This document shows positions 22,783 to 58,948 of a DNA stretch of 64,000 nucleotides, in pieces. Source of the DNA: Apophysomyces variabilis (lineage: Eukaryota; Mucoromycota; Mucoromycetes; Mucorales; Mucoraceae); assembly GCA_002749535.1 (NCBI GenBank), contig MZZL01000378.1, forward strand, positions 123,735 through 187,734, in the 5' to 3' direction. Under the pieces are notes generated by a model. The model was given only the letters and a program-made list of their open reading frames with translations. It was not told the DNA's origin and searched no databases. How positions within the stretch are numbered: the first letter of the stretch is position 1; the number at the start of each line of letters is the position of its first letter. A program made the position numbers and the translations under genes.

Positions 22783-22787
22783 GACAC

Positions 22788-22801: not shown

Positions 22802-22873
22802 TGGAGACGCCGGGGTTTGAACCCGGGGCCTTCTGCATGCAAAGCAGACGTGATACCACTACACCACATCCCC
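22802..22873 (-). tRNA. tRNA-Ala(UGC): tRNA-Ala (anticodon TGC)
   Basis: The cloverleaf can be folded by eye on the minus strand. The acceptor GGGGATG pairs with CGTCTCC, with two G-U pairs. The anticodon arm is TCTGC-TTTGCAT-GCAGA with anticodon TGC. The T arm is CCGGGTTCAAACCCCGG. The internal promoter is complete: A box TGGTGTAGTGG and B box GGTTCAAACCC. The discriminator is A and no intron is present. TTTT follows at once (22801-22798), with TTTTT slightly further on, as Pol III terminators. It is probably functional. Gyp2 lies 19 bp beyond its 3' end; LINE-A begins at its 5' end. Confidence 0.93.
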
Positions 22874-22924
22874 CACTTCTTTTTCCACTAAATTTACGTT
22901 ATATAAAGAAGTATATTCATCACC

Positions 22925-24139
22925 ATAGACAACAACAACAACAACATTAAAGAAACACTATCAAGCAACCCATCCATCAGTGAATCCATCGTTTCCTTGG
23001 CGCCTGGACAAAAGCGAAAGCTCGAAATCGACAAAACCAATATAAGCTCCCTTTCAGAAGCAATTCCTGATTGCAACATTAAGATTCCCAAATCTACAAA
23101 AAACTTATACCTTAGAGACAAAAGGAATAACATAGAAATCTCAACTGACTTCGGCCCTAGTACACTACTAAAGTGCGCTAAAATGGAAGATGAAAACCTA
23201 AAACTGATTCAGCATCTTAATGCACAAATTTCTTCTTTAAAAGAAATTATTCAACAACTTAAAGATAATAAGCAGCAAATGATGGCTCAATAGAGCCAGC
23301 TAATGTAGCTTATTATGACACTGCAAGCAAAACTGGATAGAGGAGATAATCACCCATCTACTCCATCTTCTAACAACAATACTGCAAAAAAACCAGCTTT
23401 TGTGCCTAGTCCTATTTCTGTGATGGCTCCCTCTTTTGGATCTGGCTCCTCAACAGCCAGCTCAATTTATACTGCTAAACCTACTACTACATATACTACA
23501 GTCGCAGCAAAGAATACTCTTTCACCAAAAAGAATGAAAAAAACTATGTGAACAATATCTGTAGCAGCTACACAACGTACCTTAAGTGAACCAACAGGAC
23601 CATCTCAATATAAGTTTATTTATTTCCCTTGTTGCCACTATCTCCACCATTCTAATATTAGGAAACTGCTAACAGTTATGAAAGTTCCTCAGTCTAGGAT
23701 CATTGATATCCAGTTTCCAGCTAAAGGCACTGTTGCTTTACTTGTCCATAGTGACTTCAAACAACAGCTGCTTAAATTACTGGAAAAACAAAAAGTTACT
23801 CCTAAAGCTAACTTTGATCCTACTGCACCTGAGGTTATCAGTGACCCTAAATACACCAGCCTCTCCCCTCAAGACAAGAGCGCCCTTGCCAAGTCCTTGC
23901 TAGTTTCATGTCTTCTCTGCACCTGCTCCCATCTCCCTGTACATCTGGGCAATAGTGTTGCTCGATATTTTGCTCAGTCTAATGGAATCATTCAGATTCC
24001 TGCAGATGCTTACAGTAAATATCTTGCTGACTGCAAGGTGGGCACTGCCCTATTGGTCTAGGACTCTCAGAGTTCTGAGCAAGCCCACTCTACTTTTACT
24101 CTCTCAACCCAAGACCTTGAGGCAATGGATGATCAATGA
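22925..24139 (+). pseudogene. LINE-A ORF1 protein
   Basis: RNA-binding/structural ORF1 of the LINE, read in frame 2. No ATG is visible at the start: the open frame begins near 22925 with ATA and an Asn run, and a TTG is at 22997. It encodes a basic N terminus, then a helical segment (about 23180-23290, MEDENLKLIQHL and EIIQQLKDNKQQ) likely to be a coiled coil, a Ser/Thr-rich linker and a C-terminal domain ending at TGA 24137-24139. In-frame stops include TAG at about 23291 and 23306, both CAG in LINE-C, plus TGA 23549 and two later TAGs. No CCHC knuckle is seen. Confidence 0.8.
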
Positions 24140-27100
24140 GTAGACGCATCACACTTGGTTTATTCAATGCTAACGGAATCCGAACAAGCCTGGTAGAAGT
24201 ACTTGAAGTGTGCCAGAAAGAACAAGATAACGTCAATCTTTTATTAGTTACAGAGACCTACCTTCTTCAGGGCAATCTTGATAGTCCATAGTCTCAACAC
24301 CATGTGTACACCACCAAAGCCAATGCTCTTTCTCCTACACAGGGCGGTATTTCTCTTTTAGTTCGTCCTAGTTACCCACACTATGTGCACTGAATAGCTA
24401 ACACTCATAATTCAGTTTTATCTTTTAGAATCAGTCCTTACACATTTCATGGTTTGTACCTTGCTCCTTCTATAACTCATTAAGAAGTAATGACATGTAT
24501 TCAAACATTCAATATTGACGATTACACACTTGTTTTCAGTGACCTCAACACTCATTTACACACAGTAACTGGTGATTCCAAATGAAATGAGCGAGCAAAG
24601 GATATGGCAGACTGGATCAGCTCAAACAGCTTAACCTTGTGGAATGCAGAACTAGCATATGGCAAACCTACGTTCCATGGACATCATGGCTCTAGTATCA
24701 TTGACCTCTTCTTGTCGCAATGAGCACACTTTACAAATGTCGACCTTACAATTCATGATGACCTGTCATTGAATTCAGACCACCACTTGTGTGAGCTGTC
24801 GTTTGACATAGTGCCTATACCACTGCTCCCTGCAGAAACGGCTGCACGTAAACTGTGGTGTCTCTCGCATTTGCAAAAACTAGAGCTCTACAAAAAGTAC
24901 GTTACTACCTTTGAAGCAGAAATAGGAACGCTTCATGGAGAGATCCAGCAACTTGTACAAAAAGACTCTCATTTGCCATGTCTTGCTCAGTTGGAAAGTT
25001 TGATGGAAAGACTCACTGAGTCAATCTACTTTGCTTTGGATTGCAGTGTTGGGTGCTCGCAACCATGTCTGAGATCAGCAAAATGGTTTTGGAATGACCA
25101 TCTGCAGCAGTTAGCCAATCATTATCAATAGTTGTATCAATGCTGGCGTCATTTGTGCAATGACCTCAAACACATTAAAGCCCACGCTGAGTATAGACAG
25201 GCGTGTGCTGACTTTAGTTCAGCAGTAGGCACAGCACAGCAACGATCCTGGCAACAGTTTTGTAAAAAGCTCGAGAGAAACCCAGACAATATGACCGCAG
25301 CTATCAAATGTATGTGAATATGTCGTAGGACCAACGTCACCTTATCGTCACCTGACGACCCCTTGCAAGCAGCCAATGACATGATTTCTCATCTTGAGAA
25401 CATCTTTGGTGGTTCTGTTCCTCTATGTGCTGAGCCAGTGGAGGCCTCACCTTTCATGCACCAATGTGCAAGCGTAGTGCGCACAAAACCTTAGAATACT
25501 GAAACTGTCATCAATGCTATCTGATCCTTGCCAAATCGGAAAGTGCCAGGTATCGATCATATTTGGGCAGAAATGCTCAAGCCTATATCTCAAGCACTCA
25601 GTAAGATCTTGGATGCTTTGTTCACTTTGTGTTGAGCGTGGTCCTGGACCCCTATAGCATGGCAAACAGCCCAGGTTGTTCCCATCTATAAGCAGAAAGG
25701 ATCTCTGTCTGCTCCATTTAGCTATTGGCCAATCAGTCTAACCTCAGTTTTCCATAAACTGTTGGAACGCTGTATTGCTGATGAGTTAACCACCACAATG
25801 TCCACGCTTGACATTGCTCAGGGAGGGTTCTATGCTCATAGGAATATGTTGGATCAAGCCTTGTGTTTGCACAAGATTATGGGATATTTTGCCCATGACA
25901 GGAGGGAGCCACCTGTCATTGTCTTTTTGGACATCAAAGCTGCATATGACAGTACCAATCGGTCTGTTATATGGGAAACGCTGAGACACTATGTGTCTGA
26001 GCCTTTGCTCTGGTTACTTCAGAACATGTTTGATGACATTGTTGTTAACGTCGTTCTCTAGAATGTAGCCTTCCAGGATATCACATCAAAGCATGGCGTG
26101 TTACAGGGTTCTATTCTTTCTCCTTTCCTTTACTCAGTCTTTATCGACACTCTCCCTTGATTACTAAGATCAATTTCATATAACCCACATATGGTGCTGG
26201 TACCCAATCCCCCCATTGGACGATCTCTCAACTTTTGTTCTCGGCGCCCTTTTACTTATGATCCCCTTGAATTTCAGCATGCAGCTCACCATTCGCTGCT
26301 TAGTGAATTACATAAACTGCATAATCTGTATTCTTTTGATGTCCAAGGACCTGAGGATCATACCCCTGTTTCAATGCTTCCTGTCAATTGTCTGTTATAT
26401 ACAGATGATGTTGCCCTTATAGGAACACCAGACAATATTGACCGACTCTTGGTAGAAGTAGAAATCCACTCCCGTCTTCTAGGTTACCAATGGAATCTGA
26501 CCAAGTGTGAGGTACTCAATGCCCCACCCGATCATACTTTTACACTCTATGGTGATCAGTTACCCACTTACAGGACCTTCTGGTACCTAGGTATCCCTTT
26601 CTCACAGTCAGGTATTGACGCAAATCTCTTGATACATCATGCCAACAACAAGGCGGTGAATGTTATGCATTCACTGAAAGGTTGTGGTGTGCACATGTAT
26701 GGGTTTGGTATTGCTCATGCTCTAAGGGCGTACAAAATTTTTGTGCATTTTATTCTAGAGTATGGGCTTGCTATTCTTCACCTCATCAAATGTGGGATTG
26801 AGGAGGCTGAACGTAGTCAAAGACGTTGTCTGAGACTATGTCTCTGCCATAATCCTTCTTCTCCCATTGGTGTTTTACATCTTGCTTCTCTTGCTGCACT
26901 GCTGTCAGTGTATGGAAGATCGTTGATCCTCCAGGCAAAATTTCTTTACTGCGCTGAAACGATTCCTGATGACACCCTGCTGAAGTGTATGATCCTGCAG
27001 CTCCAAGCACGCTGTAGTGAAGTGACATGGGTTAAGCTTTGTCACAATGTACTATGGAAAGAAGTGCGTAAACTCAGAGACCGGCCTGACCCCCTGAAGT

Positions 27101-27615
27101 ACCCATTGAAAGAAGCTATCCGTCTCTTCTGCCAATGTGAAATCGACGCCCTCCTATTGATCAAGGATCCTCTGGTTATCTTGATACGAGGCTTACATCG
27201 TCCTGTTTAGGATCCAGTTCTTCTTTTACCTTGCACCAGTAAAGAGCATCACCATTTGGTCAAGTGGCGTATTGCCTGGTTGCCTCCTTCACCCTTGATT
27301 GCATGTTAGTGCAGATGTCCTCATGGAAATTGTGATCACTTTCTCGACTGCCCTCTTACCAAAACTGCTATGGAAAACCTCATGTGTGTTACCTATTCGT
27401 TTCCCCTGCCTGCCATGCATCCAGTGGATTATGCACTTAATCTGTTGCCTCAGAAGATTCCGTCTACCTACAGCCTATGGATAGTCATGTGGCAGCGCGT
27501 TCACATTATCCTTCACAAGATCGATCAAGCCACCTCTGATGAAACCTTTGATCCTAAACCTCTTCCTGATGCTCTGCTCATTGCTGCCTTCAACAGGCAC
27601 TGCAGGCACAATTGA
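24136..27615 (+). pseudogene. LINE-A ORF2 (APE endonuclease, reverse transcriptase), 1160 codons
   Basis: A single frame from ATG 24136, overlapping the ORF1 stop as ATGA, to TGA 27613-27615. The APE-like endonuclease has LGLFNANGIRTS, VTETYL, SDLNTH, SIIDLFL and SDHH (24136-24790). The RT has FLDIKAAYDSTNR (A), GVLQGSILSPFLYSVFIDTLP-type block B and LLYTDDVALIG at 26398 (B copy: YADD). A C-terminal CRCPHGNCDHFLDCP zinc-like motif follows. More than ten stops occur; several are sense codons in LINE-B (TAG 24289 vs TGG 31029; TGA 25315 vs CGA 35902; TAG 27208 vs TGG 44482). The clade was not determined. Confidence 0.88.
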
Positions 27616-28213
27616 GTTGCATAATTTTCTTGACATGTATTTTATTTCTTGTATGTATTTCTCTTTATGAACTGCACCTTGTTTTGACTTTTTTTTTAAT
27701 TTATTTATTGATTTCGTTTGTGCAGTCATCTTTTTTACGTTTTCTTTTTTTAGCTCTGTACTAATATCAGGTTGCGTTGTCTTGTCTCCCCATGGATAGT
27801 CTTCTCCAGTTCCTGGTTGGTCTCTTCTGAAGCTTGGTTCTCTGCTGTTGTGATGGCTGCGCTCTTGGTCTCTATGGTCCTTGTGTGTCATTGTTCCCTT
27901 CTACTCCTTCTTGTTTGTCTGCTCGGTGTACATTTTCGTGTTACCTGATGCATCTCACTCTCTTTTTTTTCTCACGTCCCTGGCAGTCAGATTTTTTCCC
28001 AATGGGTTTTTTTCATCCGCACTGACCATCCCCACATTACTTCTCCGCTTGTACCCCCCATCCTTTTTATGCTGACATACTTTTTTTAATTTTTCCTCCA
28101 AGTAGTATGGAGTTTTTTTTTACATTCCTTTAGTACAATTAGATCAATGAGGCGGCCAACGCACTATGAAAAACTGGCAATATGGCCACTATGCCTTGAA
28201 TAAACTACTTTGA
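27616..28213 (+). other. LINE-A 3' UTR
   Basis: Non-coding, with T-rich stretches. It is repeated with transitions in LINE-B (44890-45282 and 45736-45940). It ends GAATAAACTACTTTGA just before the tRNA-like sequence. Open frames here on either strand are incidental. Confidence 0.8.
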
Positions 28214-28229
28214 ACTACACCATATCCCC
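28214..28229 (+). repeat. tRNA-Ala 5'-end target duplication between LINE-A and LINE-B
   Basis: ACTACACCATATCCCC equals the antisense first 16 nt of tRNA-Ala (22858-22873, ACTACACCACATCCCC) except for one C to T. It stands exactly between the last base of LINE-A and the first of LINE-B, so it reads as the target-site duplication of LINE-A and the insertion point of LINE-B. Confidence 0.8.
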
Positions 28230-30879
28230 ACTTCTTTTTCCGCTAAATTTATGTTATATAAAGAAGTATATTTATCACCATAGACAACAACAACAACAAC
28301 ACCAAAGAAACACTACCAAATAACCTATCTATCAGTGAATCTACTGCATTCAACCCCTTCCAACTTGACCTCAAAAGTTTTCTGCTAATTGGAATCAAAA
28401 GGCCACAAGATTTTACTAAAAACTAATAAAAAAAGTTTTTAATATTATATTATCATTTTAATTCAAAATAATAAAAAAGTTAATTAATTACTTCAAGTCT
28501 TATATAACACTTAGATGTTAGAAAAAAGCAACTCACCTTTGAATATAACATAACCTCTCTGGAAATATAAGAGGAGTTACTTAAAACTATATAAAGTCTA
28601 AATAACTATATTGCCTTATTAGAAAGCATTATTCAAAATTATAAAAAGAAAGAAGCTATTTGGCAAGCTTAATAGAGTAAGCTAATAGCTAAATTCCTTT
28701 TGCTAAGAGATAAGCTTGAGGTGGCTATCCTTTCTAAAAACTTATCCTTTGCCCCTGTGCAAACAATAAAAGTTATTAAAACTAAACCTCTTTCTTAACC
28801 TCTTCTTTACTCTTTCTTAAATGCCAACTTTTCCTCAGCTAACTTAATTCATATACTAAAAGCACCAACCTATGCCAATGTTGCTGCCAAAAACGCCTTT
28901 GCTCCTAAAAAGAAAGAGCATACCAAGTTCTAGTTGCTATAGTCTAATAGGTTTTATTAGAATCTTTAGGATTTTCAGTATATGATTTTATCTATCTTCT
29001 CTGTTATCACCATCTAAAACACTCTGATGTTCACCACCACTGCGGTCAAAAAAAGATTCTACTATCAGTAGAAACTTGGTGGAATCTCAGATTCCACCAT
29101 CTTTCCACCACCTTTCTACTGCTTTTTCACCATGCAGTGGAATCTCTTCAAAGGTTTGTGGAATGTACCTTCCACTACCTTTTCCACTACCTTTCTACCA
29201 CCCTCTCAAGTTCAACAATTGGATAAACTGCTATATGACAGAGACCATTATGTTGATGTTATTGGATTAAGTAGTATATATTAGAGGCTAACATTTTAGT
29301 TTCATTCAACCATATTCCTTTATTTAAGCACTTTTTATTGGATTAACTTGCCTACAACGATACATTCTATTGAAGCTACTGATTTTTATCTAGTCTATCC
29401 AATTGGATGTTCTTTTCGTTGTATACATTATTTTAGCCATTAAGATACACTTCTTTATCATATACAAGAAGCTTCTTTAGCTATATATATAGGAAAAAAA
29501 CAGACACTTTTATTTTCTTGGAGCTATATAGCGTAATGTACTAACAAATAGCTAACTTTATGCTTAGTTTTATATTATCTTACCTAATTACTGAAGGTTA
29601 AAGAAGCATAGCTTTTAAAAATGACAATTAGTAAAATGTACTAAAAGCTAACACACAGTAGCATACCTAAGCCAGCATGCAATAACAAATGGCAGCATTA
29701 TATATAGGCCTACAAAAAGTTATCTTGCCAAGTAACTGAATAACGATATAAAAAAGTATCTGTACCATTAAAAAGTATGTCATCTTTCTCTGTTTCCATT
29801 TTGTTAAGAAACAAAAGCTACTCTATATAATAATCAAAAAGTTAAGATTAGTTACATTTAGGTCAATCAATCAAAATACCTTATTAAAAATAAGAAGCAA
29901 GCTCTTCTATAACGTAGTGATCATTCTAGCTATCAAAAGAAAAAAAGAATGAGATGCTATGAAATGAAGATAAAAACTTACCAGCAAAGGGTATGCTTTT
30001 AGATCAAGGTCACATATTATTAGGATCATATAGTAGCAACGTTTTCAAAGTGAGTTTTCTGATGAAGAAGTGGTAAAACACTATAAAACAAAAAAGGTAT
30101 AGAGGAAAAAGTTTGCAAAAGAAAAGAATGAATAAAAGGAAAACGCGGATAACTCTGTAAAAAAAAAGAAACCATGTTAGAAGCGCGTGACATAAATAAT
30201 TATGCAGTTCTTGGGAAATGTGAATGCACTAGTTTTGCTGTCATAACTTAATTTTGTATGCATGTCTGCTACAGTAACAGCGTTTGGAGGGAGAGAAAAA
30301 TGTGGTAATATAAGAAATTCTACCACCTGGGTAGAAAGTGGGTGGAACCAGAGATTCTACCATGTAGTATAAAGGTGGTAGAATCACCCTTCAACTGCAG
30401 TGCACCTTTTTCATACTTTGAAAATTCTATAAAGTAAAATTATTAATATATAGTTCTCAGCTCATAGTGTGGTTGCTTTGCTGGTACACCAAGTATATAA
30501 ACATGAGCTTCTTACTTCCTTAGTAAAGATAGGTGTTAAGCCCTTAGACAACTTTAACCCACTTGCTCTAACAGTTATTGGAGATCTAAAGTATGCCTCT
30601 TTGTCTGCCAAAGACAAGAGCAACATAGTTAAGGATTTTTTAGTCTCTTGTCTTCTCTGCACTTATCTCCACTTTTCTGTGCATCTGAGTAATAGTGTTG
30701 CTCAATATTTTACTCAGTCTAATAGAATTGTTCAGATTTCTGCAGATGCTTATAGCAAATATCTTGCTGACTGCAAGGTAGGCACTGCCCCATTAGTTTA
30801 GAACTTTCAAAGTTCTAAGCAAGCTTACTCTACTTTCACTCTCTCTACATAAAATCTCAAGGCAATAGATGATTAATGA
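28230..30879 (+). pseudogene. LINE-B ORF1 remnant, split by Cmi2
   Basis: The first 150 bp match the LINE-A and LINE-C leader. Then 28380-29037 is AT-rich and does not align by eye with LINE-A until a short AAKNAF-like stretch near 28880 (LINE-A: VAAKNTLSPKRM). After Cmi2, 30430-30879 encodes the conserved ORF1 C-terminal domain (KSNIVKDFLVSCLLCTY, ADAYSKYLADCKVGTAPLV) and reaches the ATGA junction with ORF2 at 30876-30879. The N-terminal half may belong to a different ORF1 subfamily. Confidence 0.65.
29038..30402 (-). mobile_element. Cmi2: non-autonomous CACTA-like element (1365 bp) in LINE-B
   Basis: Same element as Cmi1 in opposite orientation: its left end, CACTGCGGTCAAAAA, matches the right end of Cmi1. 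It is flanked by the 3-bp duplication CAC (29035-29037 and 30403-30405). TTCCACC subterminal arrays sit at both ends. The interior aligns along its whole length with Cmi1, mostly with transition differences, and includes the conserved METEKDD mini-reading frame on the minus strand near 29800. Confidence 0.88.
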
Positions 30880-31131
30880 GTAGATGCATCATATTCAGTT
30901 TATTCAATGCTAACAGAATCTGAATAAGCCTAATAGAAGTACTTAAAGTGTACTAGAAAGAACAAGATAATGTCAATCTTTTATTAGTTATAGAGATCTA
31001 CCTTCTTTAAGGCAATCTTAATAGTCCATGGTCTCAATACTATATATATGCTACTAAAGCCAATACTCTTTCTCCTGCACAGAGTAATATTTCTCTTTTA
31101 GTTCATCCTAGTTACCTGCACTATGTACACT
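30876..31131 (+). pseudogene. LINE-B ORF2, endonuclease start, cut by hAT-1
   Basis: ATG 30876 overlaps the ORF1 TGA. It encodes the beginning of the APE endonuclease as in LINE-A, with its own stops but with TGG kept at 31029-31031 where LINE-A has TAG. hAT-1 interrupts at 31131, after TGTACACT. Confidence 0.8.
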
Positions 31132-34100
31132 TAGGGATTAGCAAAATATTCATTTATTTGTATTTGTTTGTATTCACTCATCAATGAATGAATATGAGCA
31201 AAGACCTATGGTTGATGAATGAATATGAATATAGATTTCTTATTTCAATTAGTTATTTAAATATTCCTAGCATCATTCAAACAATAAACAAATATTCTAG
31301 CTTCATTCATATTCATTTGCATCATTTGTAGAATTACTCAATTAACGTAGGATTTACTCAGTTTTGCATCAATCGCAACATAGAAGCATTTAATGTTGTA
31401 AAGGAATTGTCGTTAGCATGGTTATGTGAAATGCCAAAGCATACATATATGAACTTTATATTAACTGTGAATTAGCTTGAATTTGCAAAGAGAGATTTTC
31501 TATTCTGTATGGAGTGAAGCAATTCAGATGTCAGTGCAGCAGAAAACACTGTTAGAGATGACAAAAGTATGATGACGTAGCACTAAAGTATGATATTGTG
31601 CATGAACAAAACTAGTGTGACAAATAGGATGTCAGAATGTGACATGTTATAGTAGCATTGAAGAAAAGCCCTTAAATATGCAAACATAAAATGTCTTCTA
31701 AAAGAATTAGTATGCAATGCACAAACACATTGTCTGTACAATGAGCGAATAGAAAAAGGAAACAGGACGTTTATTGATAATAAAAAATCAGTCGCTTCCA
31801 AACAGCATGCTTTTGTTCAATTGCAAAACAAAAAAGTTTTGCTTTTTTTTTGCATAAGCTAAATATTTAAAGCAGCATTCCTTTAAAGACACGTTATGGC
31901 ATTGTTCAAGTCCTGTCAGCTAAACATATTATTGTTTAAATGGCGACGCTAAGTTTACTTTCAATATCTTATCTCCTATATGCTGAATGATCAATGGTTC
32001 ATTAAGTCTGAAGAATCAATATTGTCATTTGACAGAGCAATCATTAAATCTTTTAGACCAAATGATCGTTTAGCTCCTTTAAACTGAATGAGCGTTTAAT
32101 TTCTTTAGACTAAATCACTATAATATAAAATAAGAGCAGAAATAGAAACCCATTTCACTTTATTATTGATATTATATCATGTCTGACATACCTAAATGCT
32201 TCACTTCTTAGCAAAGAAGACGCACTGAATTTACTCATGCTACTGTAAGTATATATCTATTGTTATAATGTAACATTTTATACTAAATCATTGCATTGCC
32301 ATAAAACCTGTAGGATCAAACTATAAAGTTTTCAATGCCTGCTCACTCTTTGGTACAATTGTATCCATCCTCTGAAGATCTTATGTTGGAAGATACATCT
32401 ATTACTGATAAGAAAGTGGAAGAAAATACTTCATCCACTATGGTTACTGTTCCTTCCACCAAGCACAAGAGGTCAAAAACAAGCTGGGTATATGGAAATG
32501 AATGGGTCGTAGTTGAAAAAGATTCAAAGACAGGTATCAACTATTACCACTGTCAATACCAATATCTATCAGGCAGTATATACAATAAACAATATAAGAA
32601 AGTTAGCTCCATAACTAGCAACATCATGTACTATTTGAAAGCAGCATATAATCTCAATAGCAACTTTACAAAGGCGGGTATCCATAACAAAACCACTGGC
32701 ATTATGGATAACTTTGTCATTCATTCATCAACAATCAATTCAAAGTTCACTTAAGATCTTTTTCGCAATATACTGCTTAATTATCTGGTTTCTGCTGCTT
32801 TGCTTTTTAATGCCATAGAGAACCCTGCGTTCCAGAAGCTGCTGTATCTTGCTTGTATGGCACCCAATGAACAACAGCTTTTACTTCCCAGTATGAAAAC
32901 AATCTGCCACAATCTTGATCAAGCCTATGCGCTTTATCTTACTCAAATCATCGACCTTCTTAGACAGCAGCCATATATTTTATATACACTGGATGCATGG
33001 ACAAGTGAATGGAGAGATGCATTTCTTAGTGTCATAACACATTGGATAGATGAAAATTGGACGCAAAAAACAGTTATCATCAGTTTTGAGCCATTGTCTG
33101 GTATACACAGCGCAGATAACATGGGAACAGTTTTTGTGAATCTCTTAAAGAGTTTGGATCTTGACAAAAAACCTTTTTTTATTACTACCAACAATGCTAG
33201 CAACATGATTATGATGGCTAAGAGAATTGAAAAAGAAGTATCTTCCAACATTTTCTAAGCAGATCAAAACTGTATTCTCTATATTGCCCATGTCATGAAC
33301 TTATCTATGCAAGCAATCATTGGTGATGCTCTTGGCGCTGATGCTCCTGAAGATGACAACCAAGAGATGAACAATAGCAATCCTATTATTGATCCTTCTG
33401 AATGGGACCATCCAGGTAAGTCTTGCTTAGCTTTCATGTATCTTACAAAATTTCTCAAAACCTTTGTTTAAAGGTGCCATATTATGTTGTTTACAAAATG
33501 GTGTTAATAAGATTCACTCCTCCCCACAATGACTTGAGCACTATTGCAACTGTAGCAAAGCTATCCAAAAAGCAAGCTCAACCCTAGAAATGGAAGATGC
33601 AAATAAAATAAACAAAAACTAAACAGTGGTGAAGGAGCTCATTCTTGACGTTAAAACCCGCTGGAATTCCACTTATGCTATAATTGAATGGGCAATGGAA
33701 ATGCGCTATGCTTACAACATAACCTACAGTAGCATTCCAAAGTTGGAATCATACCATCTAAGCAAACAAGAATGGCAAGTCCTACAAGAGCTACACCCAT
33801 TGCTGAAACCATTTTTTGAACTAACAAGAATACTTGATAGTGAACAGTATCCTTGTCTATCAAGTACAATTATTAGATACAACATGTTGATGGATCATCT
33901 TGAGGATTACCATGATAATAGAGGAAAGATATGATTGAACTGTTACTGTAGGGAATGACATTGACAGTTGTTGACCTTTTTAGGATTGTCTCATGCTGCG
34001 ATATAGAACTGAAGTAGCATAAAACAAATTGCAAAAGTATTATGCGCATACAGGAATACTAGTGTATTCAATTACTATATCACTAGATTCTTGCGCCAAG

Positions 34101-34970: not shown

Positions 34971-34978
34971 TGTACACT

Positions 34979-37928: not shown

Positions 37929-37935
37929 TTTTTTT

Positions 37936-37943: not shown

Positions 37944-37955
37944 ATACCTTTTATT

Positions 37956-45955: not shown

Positions 45956-45966
45956 TTATTTTCTTT

Positions 45967-47800: not shown

Positions 47801-48420
47801 GAGGCAATTAATACCTAAAAAAATCTATCAAGTCCTCAAAAAAAGAATTCACACACTCAAGAAACCACGTCTGTCAATCTCTTGCAAGGTATTGAAATCT
47901 ATAATAAATGAACTGGAACTGAGACAGAGTTATCTGTAACAGGATAGCCAAATAAAAGAGGACCTATGACTCTCCCTGGTCTGGAAGAAAGAAAAGAAAA
48001 TTTAGAAACTATCTAAGGAAATAAAAAGCCAAAAAGAAAATGGAAAATGCAAAGACACCTACTAGTATAAACCAATTCATGCAACATCTGGGAGCGCCTT
48101 AGACAAGTGGACACAGGTCTTATAGTAGCAGACTAGGTGGTGATAAGCCATCATGCATACAAAGATTTTAGGGATGGCTTATGCTACCTTTATAGCCAGA
48201 AACCAGCAATGGAAAAAAGTCAGCCCAACAAGGTCAATAGCGTGCAAGCTATAGAACCAAAGGTCAAATCTGAGAACTTATCTGACTGAGATCAGAAGAA
48301 TAATAATCCCTAGATATTTTCAGATAATGAAGAAGACCTTACCTTGACTAACTTTTCAGATTGTGATAGTGATGATACAACATATACTTATCTATATAAC
48401 TTTAAGAGTATATGAGACAG
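47801..48420 (+). other. Gyp3 gag-protease linker, decayed
   Basis: About 620 bp rich in Lys, Glu and Asp codons with frequent stops in all frames. It lies between the knuckle and the protease and is presumably decayed gag-pol linker. No motif is recognised. Confidence 0.5.
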
Positions 48421-50322
48421 CAAGCCCTTGCATAGTTTAATCTCTATTAGAGATATGACTATTCAAGCAGTCTTTGACTCTGGTGTGAGTGTATTAGTTA
48501 TCAGCCATTCCTTAGCTGAAAGGCTGAACCTCATTCTAAATGGTGATCAGCTTCTACTATCTAGTTTTGATGACAAAGAATGTAAGCCATGCAAAATAAC
48601 AGTAAATGTGCTAATATATATAGCAAAAAAGTTATGCCCTAAACATATATGTATCTAAGATTCTACTAACCATGACGTATATTTCCTTGGGATGACATAG
48701 TTTAGAACTTATAATATTAGGCAGAACTTGAAGGAGTCTATTATCATCATCCCAACAAAACATGTTATGGGTTATATGGAATTACAGGGTAAATCATTTA
48801 CATTATAAGAAGCAAATCAGGATGAAGCATCAATCTGGGCAGTTAATGTGCGTGACAAGACTGAAACAGTAGACAAGCTTCAAAATTATGTCAAGGATAT
48901 CTTTGAAATGGCTCCAACTGAATCCATTGTCAAAGAGTCTCTTCTAGAAGTAGTTAGCCTATTAAAAGACTATGAACATACCTTTGTGGAAACTGCTAGA
49001 CTTGGTCAGATTACTTTAGTAGAGTATAATATACCTTTAACCACTAATATTCTAATTTGTTCAAGACCATATTGGTTATCCTGGGAAGAAGAAGAGCATA
49101 TAAGGAATGAAATCCAGAACATGCTTGATTTAGGGTTGATATAACCTTTGAAAGAAACTTGGATATTGCCAGTTTTCTTTGTGTAAAAGCATAATGGATC
49201 ATTATAAATGGTTATTGATTATTGCAAGCTGAACTAAATAACCATCAAGGATACGTTTCCCTTATTGTACATCGATGAGCTGCTGGATTCTCTTGGAGGT
49301 TCCACTTGGTTTTCCATCCTGGATGTGGTGTTCAGATACTGGCAAGTCTCTGTGGCAGAATCATTTATAGAAAAAACTGGATTTGTTACTAAGGAGGGTA
49401 CTTACAAGTTCACCATGATACCTTTTGGACTCACATCTGTACCATCCACATTCTAGAGGTTAATGTTAAGTCTTTTTGGGCCATACATTAGAACATTCGT
49501 GTATGTCTTTATTGATAATATTATTATCTACTCAAAGATATATAAGGAACACCTGAAGCATCTGGAAACTGTATTCAAGATTTGTACTGCTGCTGATTTA
49601 AAACTCAAGCGCAGCAAATACAGCTTTGCCAAGCAGCAAGTTCAATATTTGGGACATGTCATAGGCGCCAATAGACTACTACCTTGCCAAAGGAATGTCA
49701 AGAAGGTATTGGGGATGCCTTTGCCTAAAAATGTGGATGAAGTACAATCATTTCTTGGAACTACTGGATACTATAGAAGATTTGTTCAAGACTATGCTGC
49801 AATAGCCCAACCTTTGACAAGCCTGTTGAAGAAAGAATCATCATTCCTCTAGAGTAATATACATGAAGATACTATTTATATCCTAAAGGCGGCGCTTACC
49901 AATCCACCTATTCTGGCTTTCTCAGATCAGGATCAAATCCAAATCCTTATGACAGGTGCATCTACCTATAGTCTTAGCACAATTCTTTTTTAGGTTTCCT
50001 ATAAAGGTGAATCTTCAGAAATGGTTATTGCCTATGCTTTCTAATCATTATAAGGCCCCCAAAAAAATTACGCCATTACCTATCTTAAAGCGCTTGCTGT
50101 GGTGTGGGCCATATATAATTTCTAGCATTACTTGGCAGAACGATGATTTATCTTACAGACAGATCATTCAGCGCTGAAGTTCATCTTCAATAATAATTAC
50201 CTGTTAGCCAAGATACTTCACTGGGCTGCAGCAATGTTAGAATATAACTTCACAATTGAACATCAACTAAGAAAGTGTAATCTCACTGATACACTATCAA
50301 GGCTTATTACTACCTGAAGGAA
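48421..50322 (+). pseudogene. pol: Gyp3 protease, RT and RNase H remnant
   Basis: Frame 2. The protease-like AVFDSGVSVLVIS is at about 48467. The RT begins near 49020 (EYNIPLTTN, RPYWLS) and has LLDSLGGSTWFSILDV, MIPFGLTSVPSTF and FVYVFIDNIIIYS at 49497, where the expected FIDD is FIDN (loss of a catalytic Asp by GAT to AAT). RNase H is degraded (LMTGASTYSLSTILF, TDHSALKF). Stops occur throughout, for example at 49142, 49184, 49454 and 49850. No frameshift is needed up to the RNase H end. Confidence 0.82.
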
Positions 50323-50780
50323 CTTTTTATTGTAGTTAGCTTAGTTATTTTTTTTTGTCAAGAGATCTTTTTTTCCCTTATGGTTTTTATCAAGCTTGGC
50401 AAAATTTGTAATGTCAGTACTATTGTATCTATCATTTTAGATATAATAAATAAGCTGCATGAACTTCAGTTTATAGTGAAAAAAGAACATTACTCCTTTT
50501 TCTTCAAAAAAAAGAGAATCCTTTTTACTAGACCCATATATAAACCCTACCTTTAACTATAAGTAAGAAAGAGTTTTTGTTTATCAGAATACCTTAGGTT
50601 TACTCAAGATTCTTTTTTTATGTCTGTATGCAATAGATTATCTATTATACCTTTTGATCTTTTACTACCTTACTGAGAAGCAGTACCCATCAGGAGCAGA
50701 CAGCCATGTACAATGTAAGATTAGAAATTGAGCCAAGCACTTGATAGTAGTTAATAAAAAGCTCTTTAAGAAGGAAATTG
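50323..50780 (+). other. Gyp3 linker between RNase H and integrase, no gene seen
   Basis: T-rich sequence with stops in all frames. Only its position between the RNase H and integrase remnants is informative. Confidence 0.4.
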
Positions 50781-51599
50781 AGACTGGAGAAGTGGGTCAA
50801 GAAGTTCTTTATAAAGGGATGGCAAATGAGGTTATTACTAAGGTTCATTGTAAAGGACATTTCAGTGTGAACAACACCTGGAGGTGATTAAAGATCCAAT
50901 ATACAGGCCCAGGATTGTTTGCAAAAGCCTGAGAGATTGTGAAAACTTATAGTACCTGTCAATTTTAGGCAAAATAAGCTTCAAAAAGAATGGAGGTAGT
51001 AAGACCAATTCTGGCACCAAGATATTCCTTTTTCATAGTTGGGTGTAATGCTATTGGACTAGTCCTTCAGTCTAAGAAAGGGAACCAATATATTCTTGTA
51101 GCAGTAGATTATCTTACCAGATAGCCTATAGCAGCAGCAGTACTAGACATTACTGAACAAACTACAGCTGATTTTTTATTTAACTATGTTATTATTCTAT
51201 ATGATATTCCTAACTTTATCCTAATAGATCATGGTTCCAATTTCACAGTTGAATATATATATAAATTTTTGAAGCAGCTTGAATGCTAACATTTTACTAC
51301 TATGGCATATAGACCTCAGACAAATGGTCTCAGTGAAAGGATAAATCAAACAATCACCCAAAAATTGGCCAAGATCATTTGAGACAAAGGCAAAGAAGAA
51401 GACTAGGATGACTATCTAAACACAACCGTATTTGTCATTCAAACTATGCCCAATAACTCTACAAAATATAACCTGACAATGCTTCTATTTGGTTATGAGA
51501 TGAGGACGCCTAGCACATGGCCATCACCAAGCAAGGACTTTGAAGAAGGCATGCTGGTTGATGCAGTTATAAGCAGGGTCAAAGTAATCAAGTACTTAG
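50781..51599 (+). pseudogene. pol: Gyp3 integrase, first part, cut by Tfl4
   Basis: A degenerate zinc region (VHCKGHF and TYSTCQF) is followed by the catalytic core: LVAVDYLTR (D), LIDHGSNFTVE (D) and NGLSERINQTI (E), then NSTKYNLTMLLFGYEMRTP. Stops interrupt at several positions. Tfl4 is inserted after KVIKYL at CTTAG. The C-terminal remnant continues at 56971. Confidence 0.82.
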
Positions 51600-51952
51600 T
51601 GTGGTATATGTCGCTGTCATAGTGTGACTTCCTAGTACTTGTGTTCCATGAACAGGATGATCGGAATTAACGTGTTTCCATTTACAGTGAACTTCTCTAG
51701 TTTGGAACACCGACTGCACCTCTTCTCTAAATCAGAGATCTATCACCGAGGATGAAGACAAGGTGACACTGCTATACCGCAGTTATTACACTTAGCTAAA
51801 TCATACACCTATCGCCGAGAAGAATGTTCACTAATTACAAATCCCGCATAAGAGCAAATAATTATAAATAGGCAGACAAGTTGAATGAAATAAAGATATC
51901 CAACAGTCTCAAAGGATTCTATCCGTCCCCTTTTCTATCTATATATAACACA
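51600..51952 (+). repeat. Tfl4 5' LTR (353 bp)
   Basis: TGTGGTATATG...ATAACACA. TATAAATA is at 51863-51870, and TCAAAGGA at 51909-51916, 46 nt after the TATA start. Confidence 0.93.
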
Positions 51953-51957
51953 TTTTT

Positions 51958-51965
51958 TCCTTTGA
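51958..51965 (+). other. Tfl4 putative self-priming primer-binding site
   Basis: TCCTTTGA, 5 nt after the LTR behind a T run, is the exact reverse complement of TCAAAGGA at 51909-51916. The downstream GAATTCTC is shared with Tfl1, whose pairing bases differ. Confidence 0.55.
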
Positions 51966-51992
51966 ATTCTCTCATCTTTTATTTTTCTTACT

Positions 51993-54900
51993 ATGTCTGC
52001 CACTACTACACCTACCAACATGCCCATCTCTGGTCCTGCTATTGAAGAAAGACAAGAACTAGGCCAAGGTTCTGGCAACGAGATTCCTCCTCAGGAGGAC
52101 ACTGTCATGGAAAATGCTGAGAATTCCTCGGAAGCCTCAGTTGACATTGAACAACTTGAGGAAATGCTTAGAACAAGAAAGAAGAACGCAGCTACCAGAC
52201 TGATGCAAGTCCTGGCCAGTGCCTCTTCTAGTGAGCAAGAATGGCTAGATGCCCAGTATAACTTGAATGCAGCCAACACTGCCTAGAAGGCCTTCCTAGA
52301 AGCCAAGGAAGCACAAAAGGACACCTTAGACAAGGTACAAAAAGGAGAAAACATACATTCGGGACAAAACAAGCGTTTCACCCTGGTTCCAAAAACCTTT
52401 CTGGCTTTCCAAATTTGTGGTGGTCCCATACAGGATGAGAACAAAAAGGTTCATGACTCTGTCAAGACCTTTATCAGTGCTTTTGAGGTTTAGCTCCGAG
52501 CATACAATCTGGTGCCCCTGGATGACCACTGGGAACGACTCTTCTGGCTTACTTGCGATGACACACAACGTCAATGGTTTTCACGTACACTAGCAGACCG
52601 TGGTTTAAAGTGGAATCAAGCCTGTACCCGCCTGGAAAAGGAATTCGGTAACCCATTCTACATCTGGCAAAAAAAGGATGAACACTGACATCTGGCGCAA
52701 CGCCCCAATGAATCAATCCGTCTCTTCCTAGAATGATACCAAGAAGTCTCTTATGAGGCGAATCTTCAACAAGACCCTGAGTTGGTGTACAATTTTGTCT
52801 GCTCTCTTCAACCGCACATCAAGGTCAAAGCCTGGTCCACCCTTACGAACCATTTCAGTTTAGCCCTTACAGATGATATCCATCAGGCGGCGCAGTTGAT
52901 CATGGCATCCTGCAGAGAAGAAACCACTGGGTCCTACCAGTCTGGAGAACAATGGAACAATGGCAAGCGCCATTATACCAACGAAGATAACTCCAATCAA
53001 AGAAAACCAAAAAGGGGTAATTTCCGGCCTAAGTCCTGCCCACTCCATCCAAAGGGTTCTCACTCTAAGCAAGACTGCAATTTGTGGAAGGAGATGCTTC
53101 AAGAAGCAGTGCAATACTCTAAACAGAGTACGCCAAAGAAGTTTCCGAATCTGTGCAGATACTGCAAGAAGGAGGAGTACACCCCTGGCCATACTTGTCA
53201 AGAGTATTGGGAGTTGAAAAAGAAGGTTGTTGCCAACCAAACGGCCAAGATCATGGACATTGACGATCCAGATGCTGGATTGTTACCACTCAACATGGAG
53301 AAATTAGACCTCCAAAAACAAGAGTAGTCGACAGTGGGCCCTGGTAGACACTGGTGCAAATAGTTCATTTGTTAGTCTCTCTTTGGCAAGAGAATTAGAA
53401 TTATTATTGAATACAAAAAATAAACACAAAATCCACCTCGCATCTACAAAACAGATTGCTGAAAGTCATGGCACAGTTGAAATCCAACTACAGTACATGG
53501 GTAAACAATGCACCCACACATTCATCGTTATGGATCTTGCACTTGACACACATGTCAGTATTGGTTTAGATCTTATGCCTAAACTAGGTATTGCCATCAC
53601 AGGTATAGCTACCTCATGGGATGACGCACTCAACAACAACGTAAAAAGTGATATTCCCAATGACACTCCAGAACCAAACAATTCACCTGCAGGTACAAAG
53701 GCTGAAAGAGAAACATTCCTTCAAGCCATTCAACCCTCATTGGAAGCAAATGAACGCATTTCAAAGACTTCCTTCTGCACCGTTCCAGAATCGGTAATAC
53801 ACATTGACACGCCTGAAGGTGTAACATCATACCGTCGTCAGTATCCACTGCCAGTTGTGTATGAACCAAAAATTCAAGAAGTCATCAATACATGGCTCAA
53901 AGATGGAACTATTGAACAAGCTCCTGTAGACACAGCTTGGAATAGTCCTCTCACTTTGGCACCAAAGAAGGATATGTTCGGTAACTACACTGATCGACGT
54001 CCATGCCTAGACCCACGCCATATCAACAAGCTCTTAAAGGAGGACAGATATCCACTGCCTCTCATTGGAGACATTTTCCACAAGCTAGGAGGATCGCAGG
54101 TATTCACCACTCTGGACCTCAAAACAGCTTTCTATCGCTTTGAGATTTATGAAGCAGACAGACCCAAAACAGCATTTACCTTCAAAGGTACTCAATACAT
54201 GTTCAGAGGATGTCCATTCGGTCTCAAACCAATATCATCCAAGTTTCAAAGAGTCATGAATATCATCTTCAAAGACTTCACGTTCATTACCACGTTCGTC
54301 AATGATATTATCATACACTCAGTTACTATGGAGGAACATGCTCAACATGTCCAAACGGTCATAAAGAAGCTCACCAGTGTAAATCTAATCCTCAACCCAA
54401 AGAAGTGCTATTTCGCACAAGAATCAGTTCATCTCCTTGGTTTCTGTGTATCGCGCAATGGAATATCTCTGGATCCACGCAAAGTGAGCAACATCCAAGA
54501 ATGGCCAGAACCTCACACAGGTACTAACATACAACGCTTCCTTGGCATAATCAACTACTTCCGCAAACACATACCAAACGTATCCATGCTTACAGCCCCA
54601 TGAGACAGGCTACGCAATGAAGGAACACTTGAAGACGTTTGGAAAGAGAAGCACGTCACAGCTTTCAACAACCTCAAAAAGGTTCTTCTCAGGCTACCCA
54701 TACTGTGCTACCCAAACCTAAAGTATCCATTTAGTGTTGCCACAGACGCCTCAAACACAGGCATAGGCGCTGCCCTGTATCAGGTTATCAACAACGAGAC
54801 AAGACACATAGGGTTCATGGCAAGAGCTCTTTCAAAGAGTGAATAGAACTATTCTACCACAAAACGAGAGCTTTTAGCCATTGTGTACGCTCTTACAAAG

Positions 54901-56560
54901 TTCTACAAATACCTCTGGGGTAACAAATTCACCCTTTATACCGACCACAAAGCATTGACATATCTCCATACACAAAAAGTGGCAAACGCCATGATGATCA
55001 ATTGGCTCAATACTATCTTACAGTATGACTTTGATGTTGTGCACCTTCCAGGACTTGACAACATTCTGCCTGATCAATTATCATGCCTTTTTACCTCAGC
55101 AAAAACGCTGGAAGGGGGTAATGCTCCCGCAAATACATTGCAAGGTATGAGAAAGTGCGTTAACAGAGCGGTGGAAGTTCAATCCGAAGAGATGATGACA
55201 CCACCAGAAGATGAACGCCAAGAGTTGTTAGAGAAGGCACACGCTTTCAGACATTTTGGAGCAAATGCAATAGTCAATGCACTTCACAATGATGGTCTAT
55301 CGTGGCCCAACATGCATAAACACGCTGTTGACACAGTACGCAAATGCATAGAATGCCAAAAACATAACATCTCTATAAAGGGATATCATCCATTACGCCC
55401 CATTCATGCTTATCTACCAGGCGATCATTGGGCAATAGACCTCACGGGTCCATTCACAACCACTCATACAGGTAAAAATTACCTATTGGTTATGCTTGAT
55501 ATTTGCACATGTTTCTGTGTTCTTCGTGCTATACCTGACAAATCTCAAGATACAGTTGTCACAGCTGTAATCAACGTCTTTTGCGATTTCGGATTCCCTT
55601 GATATTTACAATCTGACAATGGAAAAGAGTTCATCAACTCCCTCATGAAATTACTCTCTGAATCATCTGGATTTGATCACAGATTAGTCATGCCTTATCA
55701 CCCAAGAGCTAACGGTGTTGCCGAACACTGGGTTAAAACAACAGTGAACGCATTGAAAAAGTGCATTAAAGGCGCAACAAGAGATTGGGACCTATATGTA
55801 CCAAGCGTTCAACTGGCGGTAAATGCAAAAGAAACAAAAAGAACAGGATCTTCTCCATACACCCTTATGTTTGCAAGAGCAATGAACGGGTTCAAATCAT
55901 ACACAAACGATCCTAACATACCACCTATGACAAATGAAGAACTTTTGCAACGCATTGATGACATGACCAATGTGGTATTTCTAGCAATTGCAGAAAGAAC
56001 ACAAGCTGTCATAAACGCACAAAGAGGCAAATTTGACAAGAAATACTGAATGGTGAAATTTGCACTAAATAACCAGGTCATGATCAAAGAGAGACAACGC
56101 AGCAAACTAGAGCCCGCTTACCATAGTCCATACACCATCGTCAGAGAAACCTGAGGAGGATCTTACGTTCTTATAGATGAACAAGAACTACTACTCCCAT
56201 GCGATTATCCACCATCCGCACTCAAACTTATATCTCAAGATGAGATAATATCCCTCAACGATGTCTAAGAAAAAGGCAAAGAATATTATGTTGTTGAAGC
56301 CACTATCGGACACAAAGAAATTTCAAAGGGAAATTATATTTACAGAGTAAGATGGGAAGGCTATGATGAAAAGGACGACATATGGCAGGAGCCAGACTCC
56401 TTCAGCAGTCCAAAGCCTATAATGGATTACTGGGAATGACTTGGTTCTAAACCAAATGACAAGATAACACGTCAGACATGCACATCATCAAACACACATT
56501 CCGAAAAACGTCTGAATAGAAACCAGACAAATACACGACCAACAAAACGTACACGCCATT
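51993..56560 (+). pseudogene. gag-pol: Tfl4 Gag-Pol polyprotein, deletion and stops
   Basis: Gag starts at ATG 51993 in frame 3 (WLTCDDTQRQWFSRTL; zinc motif CRYCKKEEYTPGHTC, intact). It breaks near 53326, where about 26 codons present in Tfl3 are missing and reading moves to frame 1. The protease ALVDTGANSSFV is intact. The RT is TTLDLKTAF, but FVND replaces FVDD (GAT to AAT next to GTC). RNase H has ATDASNTGIGA. The integrase has DLTGPF, SDNGKEF and VAEHWV. A chromodomain (YYVVEATIGHK, YRVRWEGY, DIWQEP) is at about 56285-56405. Roughly a dozen stops occur, including TAG 52285, TGA 54601 and TGA 56047. Confidence 0.88.
55109..55123 (+). other. Candidate central polypurine tract in Tfl4 pol
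   Basis: TGGAAGGGGGTAATG is identical over 15 nt to the Tfl4 3' polypurine tract plus LTR TG (56605-56619). It lies between RNase H and integrase, the same place as in Tfl1. Confidence 0.6.
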
Positions 56561-56617
56561 AATACCTTCACAAACTATTACAGTTTTAACGGTTATGTCT
56601 AACTTGGAAGGGGGTAA

Positions 56618-56970
56618 TGTGGTATACATCGCTGTCATAGTGTGACTTCTTAGTACTTATGTTCTATGAACAGGATGATCAGAATTAACGTGTTTCCATT
56701 TACAGTGAACTTCTCTAGTTTGGAACACCGACTGCACCTCTTCTCTAAATCAGAGATCTATCACCAAGGATGAAGACAAGGTGACACTGCTATACCGCAG
56801 TTATTACACTTAGCTAAATCATACACCTATCGCCGAGAAGAATGTTCACTAATTACAAATCCCGCATAAGAGCAAATAATTATAAATAGGCAGACAAGTT
56901 GAATGAAATAAAGATATTCAACAGTCTCAAAGGATTCTATCTGTCCTCTTTTCTATCTACATATAACACA
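56618..56970 (+). repeat. Tfl4 3' LTR (353 bp)
   Basis: TGTGGTATACA...ATAACACA, preceded by the tract GGAAGGGGGTAA (56606-56617). About eleven differences from the 5' copy, all transitions. Confidence 0.93.
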
Positions 56971-57371
56971 CTTAGCTGAGCAATTTCAGATAGAAGCTAG
57001 GTGACAAGTGCAAGAATGGCAAGCTAAGGATAAACAAAGGTATGATTCAAATGTCCATACCTAAAGGCGTTACTAAGTTAGGGAACAAGTCTTGATAAAG
57101 AATCAAATGCCTTCAAACAAGTTTGTAGATTGTTAGTTAGGTCTAATGACAGTTGTAAGAGTAAATAGATTAGGCACATACCACCTCATAGGTCCAAATA
57201 GCTGAAGACTTCAAGACGCAATCAATGGCGACGTCTTGGTACCATATTAGCAAAGGAAATTGATAGTTCCTAATATCCAGATAAAGCAGACAGAATAATA
57301 GTTCTAAGCATAGATTAAATGGAGAATGTTCAATTGACTAGATTTCTTAGTCTAGCCTAGGAGAGGTCGCA
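56971..57371 (+). pseudogene. pol: Gyp3 integrase C-terminal remnant and 3' end
   Basis: After Tfl4, decayed reading LAEQFQIEAR, WQAKDKQRYDS, EQVLIKN and LGTYHLIGP resembles the integrase C-terminal/GPY-F region. Stops are frequent. No chromodomain is seen. A purine stretch GGAGAGG precedes the 3' LTR at 57372. Confidence 0.7.
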
Positions 57372-58354
57372 TGACATGGTGCATGGTGATTGTTTCCGGC
57401 CGTCCCAAGGAAGTAAAAAAATATGGAAATGAAGCGCTTGCATATACTTGATTCTATAGAAAGTCTTAGTCTTCTTCCTGTCTCTTCGGTTATGTGCACC
57501 ACGTTCTTGGAGGTACACGACACTTGGGGTGGAGTTCGTGCACAACGTATTTGGCTGGGACACAACGTCTGGCAGTTGTTGGTACACTGTATCTTTTGAG
57601 GTACACTACCTTTATAAACCAAAAAATAGACATATAACAGACTCCAATGGTGCACAACTTTCATGAATGATGAACCTACCACTTGACCTTAACCTGGGTA
57701 AAACCGGTGTTATATGACACTATCATCTCTGCATTTTATTATTCTATCCTGATGTATATGCTGTTATCTTTTAAGTCAAGATAGTATAATTCATAATTAT
57801 TTTCTTTTATTCATTATTACTATCTTTTATTTTATCTATTCTTTTATTAGTTTCCTTTCCTAAAGATTTTGTCTTACTAGTATGAAGTTTAGTAGAAGTT
57901 TTTTATAAATAAAAAGATAAAGACAAAGGAAATAGAAAGGTATGTGTAGAAGTGATATCTAAAAAACCCTTTTTGTGCCTCAAGCTCTATTTACACTCTG
58001 AAATTTATCTTGGTCAAGTTATATTGTTGTCATTGGATTGCTAAGGATCATTGAAGTATATAATTGATAGAAGTTTATTGTGTATTTTGCTAGAATCTTT
58101 TTTTTGATACCCTTCTATTATTATATTTTCTTCTTTTGATCACCTTTATTTTATTATTCTCTTTTAAAATTCTTTAACACTCTTCTTACAGTTAAGATTA
58201 TCTTATTGTACCCTTCCCCTTTTATCAATTGCAATTACATTGTATCCTTTTCTTCTAAGTGTTATATTTATTATACACCCTCCCCTTCTTATATATATTT
58301 ATATTCTCTTTATTTTGTACCCTTTTGTCATAAGACAAAGCACTGTACATGTTA
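57372..58354 (+). repeat. Gyp3 3' LTR
   Basis: TGACATGGTG...TACATGTTA, aligned with 45967-46949 along its whole length. Small open frames on the minus strand near 57350-57680 repeat those in the 5' LTR and are not genes. Confidence 0.88.
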
Positions 58355-58948
58355 CTTTTCTGCTAAATTTACATTATAAAAAGAAGTATATTTATCACTA
58401 TAGACAATAATAACAACATTAAAGAAACACCATTAAGCAACCTATCTATTAGTAAATCTACTGCATCTAACCCTCCTAACAGTGAATTCATTATTTTCTT
58501 AGTACCTAGACAAAAGTGAAAGCTTAAAATTAACAAAACTAATATAAGCTCCCTTTCAGAAGCAATTCTCAATCACAATATTAAGATTCCTAAATCTATA
58601 AAAAACTTATATTTTAGAAACAAAGGAAATAACATAGAAACCTCAACTGACTTTGGCTCTAGTATACTACCAAAGTGCATTAAAATGGAAGATGAAAACC
58701 TAAAACTGATTTAGTATCTTAATGTGCAAATTTCTTCTTTAAAAGAAATTATTCAACAACTTAAAGATGATAAGTAGCAAATAATGGCTCAACAGAGCTA
58801 ACTAATGCAGCTTATTATAACACTGCAAGCAAAACTGGATAGAGGAGATAATTGCCCATCTACTCTATCTTCTAACAACATAACTGTAAAAAAACCAGCT
58901 TTTATGCCTAGCTTTATTTTTATGACAGCTCCCTCTTTTAGACCTGGC
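58355..58948 (+). pseudogene. LINE-C leader and ORF1 N-terminal part
   Basis: Matches LINE-A 22885-23450: TATA-like leader, CAA repeats, the basic stretch, the coiled-coil segment (MEDENLKLI) and the Ser/Thr linker. It has its own stops (for example TAG in KLI*YL), but at the two CAG codons that are TAG in LINE-A it still reads CAG (near 58796 and 58810). It shares with LINE-B a leader variant (AAATCTACTGCAT) that LINE-A lacks. Confidence 0.8.

Follow-up and report, generated by a model that had tools for sequence, protein, structure and literature searches.

LINEs of the APE type that are related to each other very probably insert into tRNA genes of Apophysomyces variabilis at nucleotide A14, where a duplication of 14 nt keeps the tRNA gene whole and arrays of LINEs are formed. 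The initial annotation of the DNA considered here, a window of 64 kb within contig C61 of an assembly of 38.7 Mb and 126 contigs, had proposed that the 5' end of a tRNA-Ala gene is the target of a LINE and that the target duplication recreates the target for the next insertion. This proposal is supported by other copies in the genome. The accompanying view of a single LINE specific for tRNA-Ala was too narrow: tRNA-Ala is targeted, but by one of several related families that together occupy several types of tRNA gene. Relatives are similarly placed at tRNA-Ala, Gln, Ser, Phe, Cys and Ile genes elsewhere in the genome, and at tRNA-Asp and tRNA-Lys genes they were seen on the 5' side only.

The LINE array at a tRNA-Ala gene

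The array in the window reads outward from a tRNA-Ala(TGC) gene through LINE-A, a 14-mer, LINE-B, a second 14-mer and LINE-C. The target gene, expected at the start of LINE-A from the initial annotation, was called intact by ARAGORN at 22802..22873 on the minus strand, with the antisense of its nt 1-14, TACACCACATCCCC, at 22860-22873. A single additional C separates it from LINE-A (22874..28215, plus strand, 5.3 kb), the 5' end of which lies at tRNA nt 1 with the start at 22874/22875 and the 3' tail of which, ..AATAAACTACTTTGAAC, is devoid of poly(A). The first 14-nt target site duplication, TACACCATATCCCC (28216..28229, plus strand), carries one change with respect to tRNA-Ala and is directly followed by LINE-B (28230..45942, plus strand). 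Both the 5' and the 3' end of LINE-B are present, and its length of 17.7 kb is due to other repeats that have entered it. The second 14-nt target site duplication, TATACCATATCCCT (45943..45956, plus strand), differs from tRNA-Ala by three changes. All changes in the two 14-mers are C to T on the strand as read, and their increase from one to three in successive 14-mers is consistent with an array that ages away from the tRNA gene.

That the next LINE follows each 14-mer, as had been proposed, also holds for LINE-C, with the qualifications that an extra T is present at the border of LINE-B and LINE-C and that LINE-C is split by an LTR retrotransposon of 12.4 kb (45967..58354, plus strand), which begins 10 bp past the second 14-mer. 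The initial bases of LINE-C (45957..45966, plus strand) are decayed by C-to-T changes and terminate in the CTTT duplication of the LTR element, whereas the remaining LINE-C 5' region (58355..58950, plus strand) ends at another repeat. The LTRs at 45967-46949 and 57372-58354 are 92% identical across 975 aligned columns, and the element is flanked by the 4-bp duplication CTTT, with the insertion point about 10 nt inside the LINE-C 5' end. It was this LTR-LTR alignment along with the 4-bp duplication that exposed the split and thereby placed the start of LINE-C at the second 14-mer. When the LINE-C flanks were rejoined across the LTR element and compared with the stretch leading from the first 14-mer into LINE-B, 50 of 69 positions matched at the best one-base shift, as against 28/69 and 31/70 at two other shifts. 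An interpretation of the sequence after LINE-B as the upstream flank of a tRNA gene, with the LTR element at -11 and LINE-C unrelated, was rejected. The 3' end of LINE-C was not found within the 64-kb window. The likely order of arrival deduced from this arrangement is LINE-C, the LTR element, LINE-B and LINE-A.

A further LTR element is apparently nested within 45967..58354, between direct repeats at 51597 and 56914, and the LTR family of the 12.4-kb element occurs on contig C119, where it is flanked by a 4-bp duplication TGGG and located 10 nt upstream of a tRNA-Ala gene. Nested repeats are abundant between 4876 and 59122 of the window, including direct repeats resembling LTR pairs at 13218/19038, 37514/42641 and 51597/56615, and one repeat is common to 22424-22723 and 4876-5175.

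The ORF2 frame of LINE-A (24133..27612, plus strand) is interrupted by 14 internal stops and specifies an APE-type endonuclease upstream of a reverse transcriptase (RT). The RT was matched by Pfam family PF00078 (E 9.6e-16) and the endonuclease by PF14529, with an E value of 1.5e-7 in LINE-A and 3.6e-9 in a copy on contig C11. No RNase H was matched in LINE-A by Pfam at E 0.01, and no nuclease besides the APE-type endonuclease was detected in the Pfam search. The closest solved relative of the LINE-A RT is human LINE-1 ORF2p (4.9e-11), and the named proteins among the best 120 of its 345 relatives belong to Circinella, Lichtheimia, Rhizopus, Mucor and Absidia. Judged by their RT, endonuclease and target site duplication, the elements are most likely L1-like non-LTR retrotransposons of the APE type. 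LINE-A also carries ORF1-like pieces, one of which (23552-24058) matches the FF domain PF01846 (E 1.2e-4).

Related LINEs at tRNA genes elsewhere in the genome

The genome was searched for the ends of related LINEs, with counts that represent lower bounds since only the best-scoring candidates were considered, and RT identities were computed over a 141-aa RT piece. The search with the 5' end of the LINE-A family yielded at least 11 matches, namely three tRNA-Ala genes alone and eight LINE 5' ends. Among the matches listed, two of the eight 5' ends adjoin an intact tRNA gene (Ala, Asp) and five directly follow a 14-mer (Ala in one case, Gln in one and GGGTYGATGGTGTA in three); the eighth is LINE-C, which follows its 14-mer once the LTR element is discounted. 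An additional 5' end of this family is located at C87:3321. The 3' ends, at least ten in number, are joined to the Ala-type 14-mer (2), the Gln-type 14-mer (2), GGGTYGATGGTGTA (4) and non-tRNA sites (2). The sequence GGGTYGATGGTGTA occurs at four LINE junctions (C11:2029-2046, C87:95-112, C87:2369-2386 and C87:3322-3339), and a tRNA gene starting in this way or carrying GGGTCGATGGTGTA was not found in the assembly. The contigs C11 and C87 start within these arrays. More generally, C7, C11, C16, C36, C59, C87 and C93 have contig ends inside tRNA-LINE insertions, and a single tRNA-Gln insertion may be split between C36 and C59. A 5'-truncated copy of the LINE-A family adjoins the tRNA-Gln gene on C59. 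The genome check for copies at unrelated sites that the initial annotation had suggested revealed two, which are 5'-truncated members of this family at non-tRNA sites on C76 and C21, flanked by duplications of about 12 bp.

The Ser family is represented by eight listed RT copies with 62-68% RT identity, in six of which the 5' end adjoins an intact tRNA-Ser gene or follows a Ser-type 14-mer. The LINE begins with the next base after an intact tRNA-Ser on C38, C70 and C79, and Ser-type 14-mers are present at 5' junctions twice on C38 and once on C93. One of the C38 14-mers is identical to tRNA-Ser in 14/14 positions, and the other as well as that of C93 show two changes each in a hand count. Of the two remaining copies, one extends beyond the contig end and one is without a placed 5' end; a further LINE 5' end at a tRNA-Ser gene was detected on C16. 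The 3' ends of the copies on C70 and C79 and of the second copy on C93 were not found at the predicted places. Within their first 40 nt, LINEs of the Ala and Ser types contain complementary stretches, ACTTCTTT..AAAGAAGT, that can form a short hairpin. Shuffling gave z values of -2.5, -2.5, -2.6 and -0.8 in four copies of the LINE-A family and of about 0 in three Ser-type copies, so the signal is weak and inconsistent between the families. No Rfam ribozyme was present among six matches up to E 10 in the 5' region of LINE-A (window positions 22700-23300).

A third family, with about 50-54% RT identity, is named here after the motif TAGCTCA. Its 5' end gave at least 15 matches, seven exact and eight inexact, and among the exact ones six of seven are located at tRNA-Phe (2), Cys, Ile or Lys genes or after an Ile 14-mer; at the other one (C95:906211) the LINE 5' end is preceded by an LTR-like end (..GTGTCA) instead of a tRNA gene. 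Four insertions were seen with both ends, two at tRNA-Phe on C87, one at tRNA-Cys on C90 and one at tRNA-Ile on C71, and are known from these ends, 4.8-4.9 kb apart, and a correctly oriented RT match between them. In all four, the 3' 14-mer is identical in 14/14 positions to the start of the tRNA beside the 5' end of the same LINE, and the 3' tails are nearly constant (..AATCTTTAAYC). A constant tail followed by a 14-mer that tracks the adjacent tRNA identifies the 14-mer as a target site duplication. The search for 3' ends, whose pattern contains TGAGCTA and thus does not provide an unbiased sample of the family, gave at least eight matches: the four insertions with both ends, three matches with 0-1 mismatch and one with three mismatches. 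The 14-mers of the three matches with 0-1 mismatch correspond to Phe with one change, Lys(CTT) with one change and GGGGATGTAGCTCA, which we take to be the start of tRNA-Ala(AGC); a tRNA gene starting with GGGGATGTAGCTCA was not found in this assembly. At the tRNA-Lys gene on C79, the 3' 14-mer deviates at two positions from the tRNA at the 5' end and the ends are 8.9 kb apart, and it is uncertain whether they belong to the same insertion. An LTR-element end lies 11 bp past the 14-mer in one Phe copy and 9 bp past it in the Cys copy, a spacing that also occurs upstream of 16 of 58 tRNA rows, as expected if that side was formerly the upstream flank of the tRNA gene. The TAGCTCA-bearing tRNAs L041, L042, L048-L050 and L078 are without an adjoining LINE.

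The tRNA-Ile gene on C71 heads a mixed array. It is followed by a CGCTCTTTC-type LINE that extends from 34379 to about 39240, the Ile 14-mer, a middle stretch of 5.2 kb with an RT match at 42214 and other ends (GAGACATCTG.. and ..TTTTTCACC), the identical 14-mer again and the 5' end of another CGCTCTTTC-type LINE (44490).

Additional LINEs served for comparison. The control LINEs at C35:7878, C81 and C80 (48% RT identity) have a recognisable common 5' start and no tRNA gene upstream, and in the C113 LINE (45% RT identity) the start is close to the edge of the fetched stretch. Among 19 further 5' regions at the expected distance, a tRNA gene was present in two (C90, C71), a 14-mer in one (the second C71 copy) and neither in 16. 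These 16 regions include copies with 49-50% RT identity (C95:2003510, C94, C26 twice and C79:332400), and such copies may be interrupted elements or members of families without tRNA targeting. The C35, C81 and C80 group (L105, L107, L109), with the 5' start CTTTTTCCGCTAT.., is located beside GGTACC or GGTAC-repeat flanks and perhaps represents another target-specific group.

Target site and proposed integration mechanism

The border between the 14-mer and the LINE tail is hidden in tRNA-Ala, since GT follows A14 in this tRNA. The tRNA-Gln(TTG) genes on C59 and C112 have AT after A14 (GTGTA/ATGG, with a slash at the border), and the junction on C36, the short upstream flank of which looks by eye like that of the C112 gene, reads GTGTA/GTTC, i.e. 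GTGTA/GTTCAAAG, and thus does not continue with Gln bases after the cut. Likewise, the truncated copies at non-tRNA sites converted the target ATCGTA/ACGG into ATCGTA/GTTCAAAG on C76 and the target CTGTA/ATGGC into CTGTA/GTTCAAAG on C21. These three junctions define ..CTTTGAAC as the LINE terminus and tRNA nt 1-14 as the duplication. Accordingly, the antisense tRNA start that the initial annotation had noticed after LINE-A and LINE-B is indeed present, but comprises 14 nt rather than 15-16, the leading AC being part of the LINE tail.

At all full sites the cut lies after A14 with a 14-bp stagger to nt 1, and the LINE 5' ends are separated from tRNA nt 1 by 0-4 extra bases. Integration inside the tRNA genes could proceed by target-primed reverse transcription. 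The sense strand would be nicked first in the A box, between A14 and R15, and the LINE RNA would be copied from the free 3' end at A14 as primer, before the second strand is cleaved 14 nt upstream, at nt 1 of the mature tRNA or within a few bases of it; either a protein or an RNA might read the A box. Once repaired, the site would hold an undamaged tRNA gene from which the LINE points outward, and nt 1-14 would be repeated at the distal end of the LINE. The predicted product, in which the upstream flank is followed by nt 1-14, then by the LINE, its 3' end facing the flank, and finally by the whole tRNA gene, corresponds to the observed layout. Since the tRNA gene is left whole, the next LINE would enter between it and the older LINE, and repeated entry beside the tRNA would build up head-to-tail arrays in which the youngest LINE adjoins the tRNA gene, insertion thus presumably running toward the tRNA. 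The LINE-flanked tRNA genes would presumably still be transcribed. It is moreover fairly probable that the elements form one lineage, whose families read different A boxes (GTRTA, TAGCTCA, GCCKGA) and all cut between A14 and R15, the 14-bp stagger making the tRNA whole again; tRNA genes would then act as renewable landing pads and the arrays as dated layers of LINEs and LTR elements.

The 14-16 nt might instead belong to the LINE itself as a fixed part of its 3' end, a possibility that the initial annotation had named for its 16 nt; such a tail would stem from a single capture of tRNA sequence and would have been passed on ever since. Although the same 14-mer recurs within a family, three times on C87 and one change away on C11, the near-identical tail ..AATCTTTAAYC precedes a Phe, Cys or Ile 14-mer that always matches the tRNA at the other end, which rules out a fixed tail for the TAGCTCA family. 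The tails of the LINE-A family precede Ala, Gln or GGGTY-type 14-mers and none at all on C76 and C21, and a captured tail is therefore extremely improbable overall. Only slightly less remote is the view that a single LINE beside a tRNA gene was multiplied into an array by tandem duplication or unequal crossing-over and not by repeated insertion. The identical 14-mers at array junctions and the resemblance of the C11 and C87 arrays would be expected from such a process, and tandem duplication may have copied units of these two arrays. As a general explanation, plain tandem duplication was rejected, since the C71 array contains different 5' and 3' ends, the 14-mers of the window have diverged (by one and then three changes) and LINE-B contains insertions that are absent from LINE-A. 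The mixture of two LINE types on C71 excludes the duplication of one unit and fits the re-targeting of one tRNA gene.

A different question is how the site is recognised. The LINEs could be directed by contact with a Pol III factor, as proposed for TRE5, with the position A14 resulting from geometry. In favour of this, the full targets are all tRNA genes, and TRE5-A requires the B-box with TFIIIB as the proposed partner (PMC5391098, in the part available). It is nevertheless rather doubtful, as each family is restricted to tRNAs with one A-box sequence (GTGTA/GTATA, here denoting two variants, TAGCTCA or the Ser type) and the sites ATCGTA/A and CTGTA/A of the truncated copies lie outside tRNA genes. 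This A-box fidelity together with the truncated copies at GTA/A sites points to a direct reading of the DNA sequence. Given the TAGCTCA-bearing tRNAs that have no LINE beside them, chromatin may assist, and Pol III factors may contribute.

Comparison with known tRNA-directed elements

LINEs and DNA transposons directed to tRNA genes are already known, whereas the site and the array logic described here apparently are not. No LINE with the A14 site, a 14-nt duplication, isoacceptor families and arrays was found in the literature searched, which leaves its absence unproven, and no LINE of fungal tRNA genes was found in this search, with most subscription papers lying outside its reach. Among the known elements, those named LIN originate from planarians and NeSL-1_TV from Trichomonas.

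According to the available parts of the cited sources, NeSL-1_TV (tRNA-Pro), LIN15_SM (tRNA-Arg) and LIN25_SM (tRNA-Glu) are likewise sequence-specific non-LTR elements of tRNA genes, but belong to lineages with a restriction-like endonuclease instead of the APE type PF14529 found here (PMC4640811). NLTR-A of D. purpureum is likewise a non-LTR element that lies only a few bp from the 5' end of the mature tRNA (PMC5006619, PMC5911963); its position is 2-6 bp upstream (PMC5006619), as compared with 0-4 bp here, and the two ranges overlap. Downstream of its RT, NLTR-A carries an RNase H domain, of which no match was obtained in LINE-A; the accessible text describes neither a 14-nt duplication nor an array, and the host is an amoeba and not a fungus (PMC5006619, PMC5911963). 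The Dictyostelium elements TRE5 and TRE3 are also tRNA-gene-directed LINEs of the APE type and the L1 group, but as far as these sources extend they insert outside the tRNA, about 50 bp upstream or 100 bp downstream, rather than 0-4 bases from nt 1 (PMC5006619, PMC5391098, PMC5911963). Dada-tA and Dada-tL likewise enter the tRNA-Ala or tRNA-Leu gene itself and generate duplications. The initial annotation had listed Dada among the LINEs, which was mistaken: the source, as far as available, describes DNA transposons with a DDE transposase, duplications of 6-7 bp and a target in another part of the tRNA sequence, as opposed to the RT and APE endonuclease found here (PMC3706591). Within the same fungal order, Ty3/gypsy LTR elements of Rhizopus oryzae are located near tRNA genes; these are of the LTR type, and the consulted part of the report gives no tRNA link for the LINEs of that species (PMC2699053).

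Insertion within an essential gene that stays whole would represent a nearly harmless and renewable form of parasitism. Families that share one cut position in different tRNAs provide a natural series on how LINE endonucleases read their target, and layered arrays could date waves of LINEs and LTR elements at single loci. Insertion directed to tRNA genes is known for Ty3-like LTR elements. In the present assembly, LTR-element ends (..GTGTCA or GCGTCA) are located 8-13 bp upstream in 16 of 58 tRNA rows (L035-L087 and the window; one locus is listed twice and some of the tRNAs are probably mitochondrial), and these ends point to a tRNA-directed LTR family.
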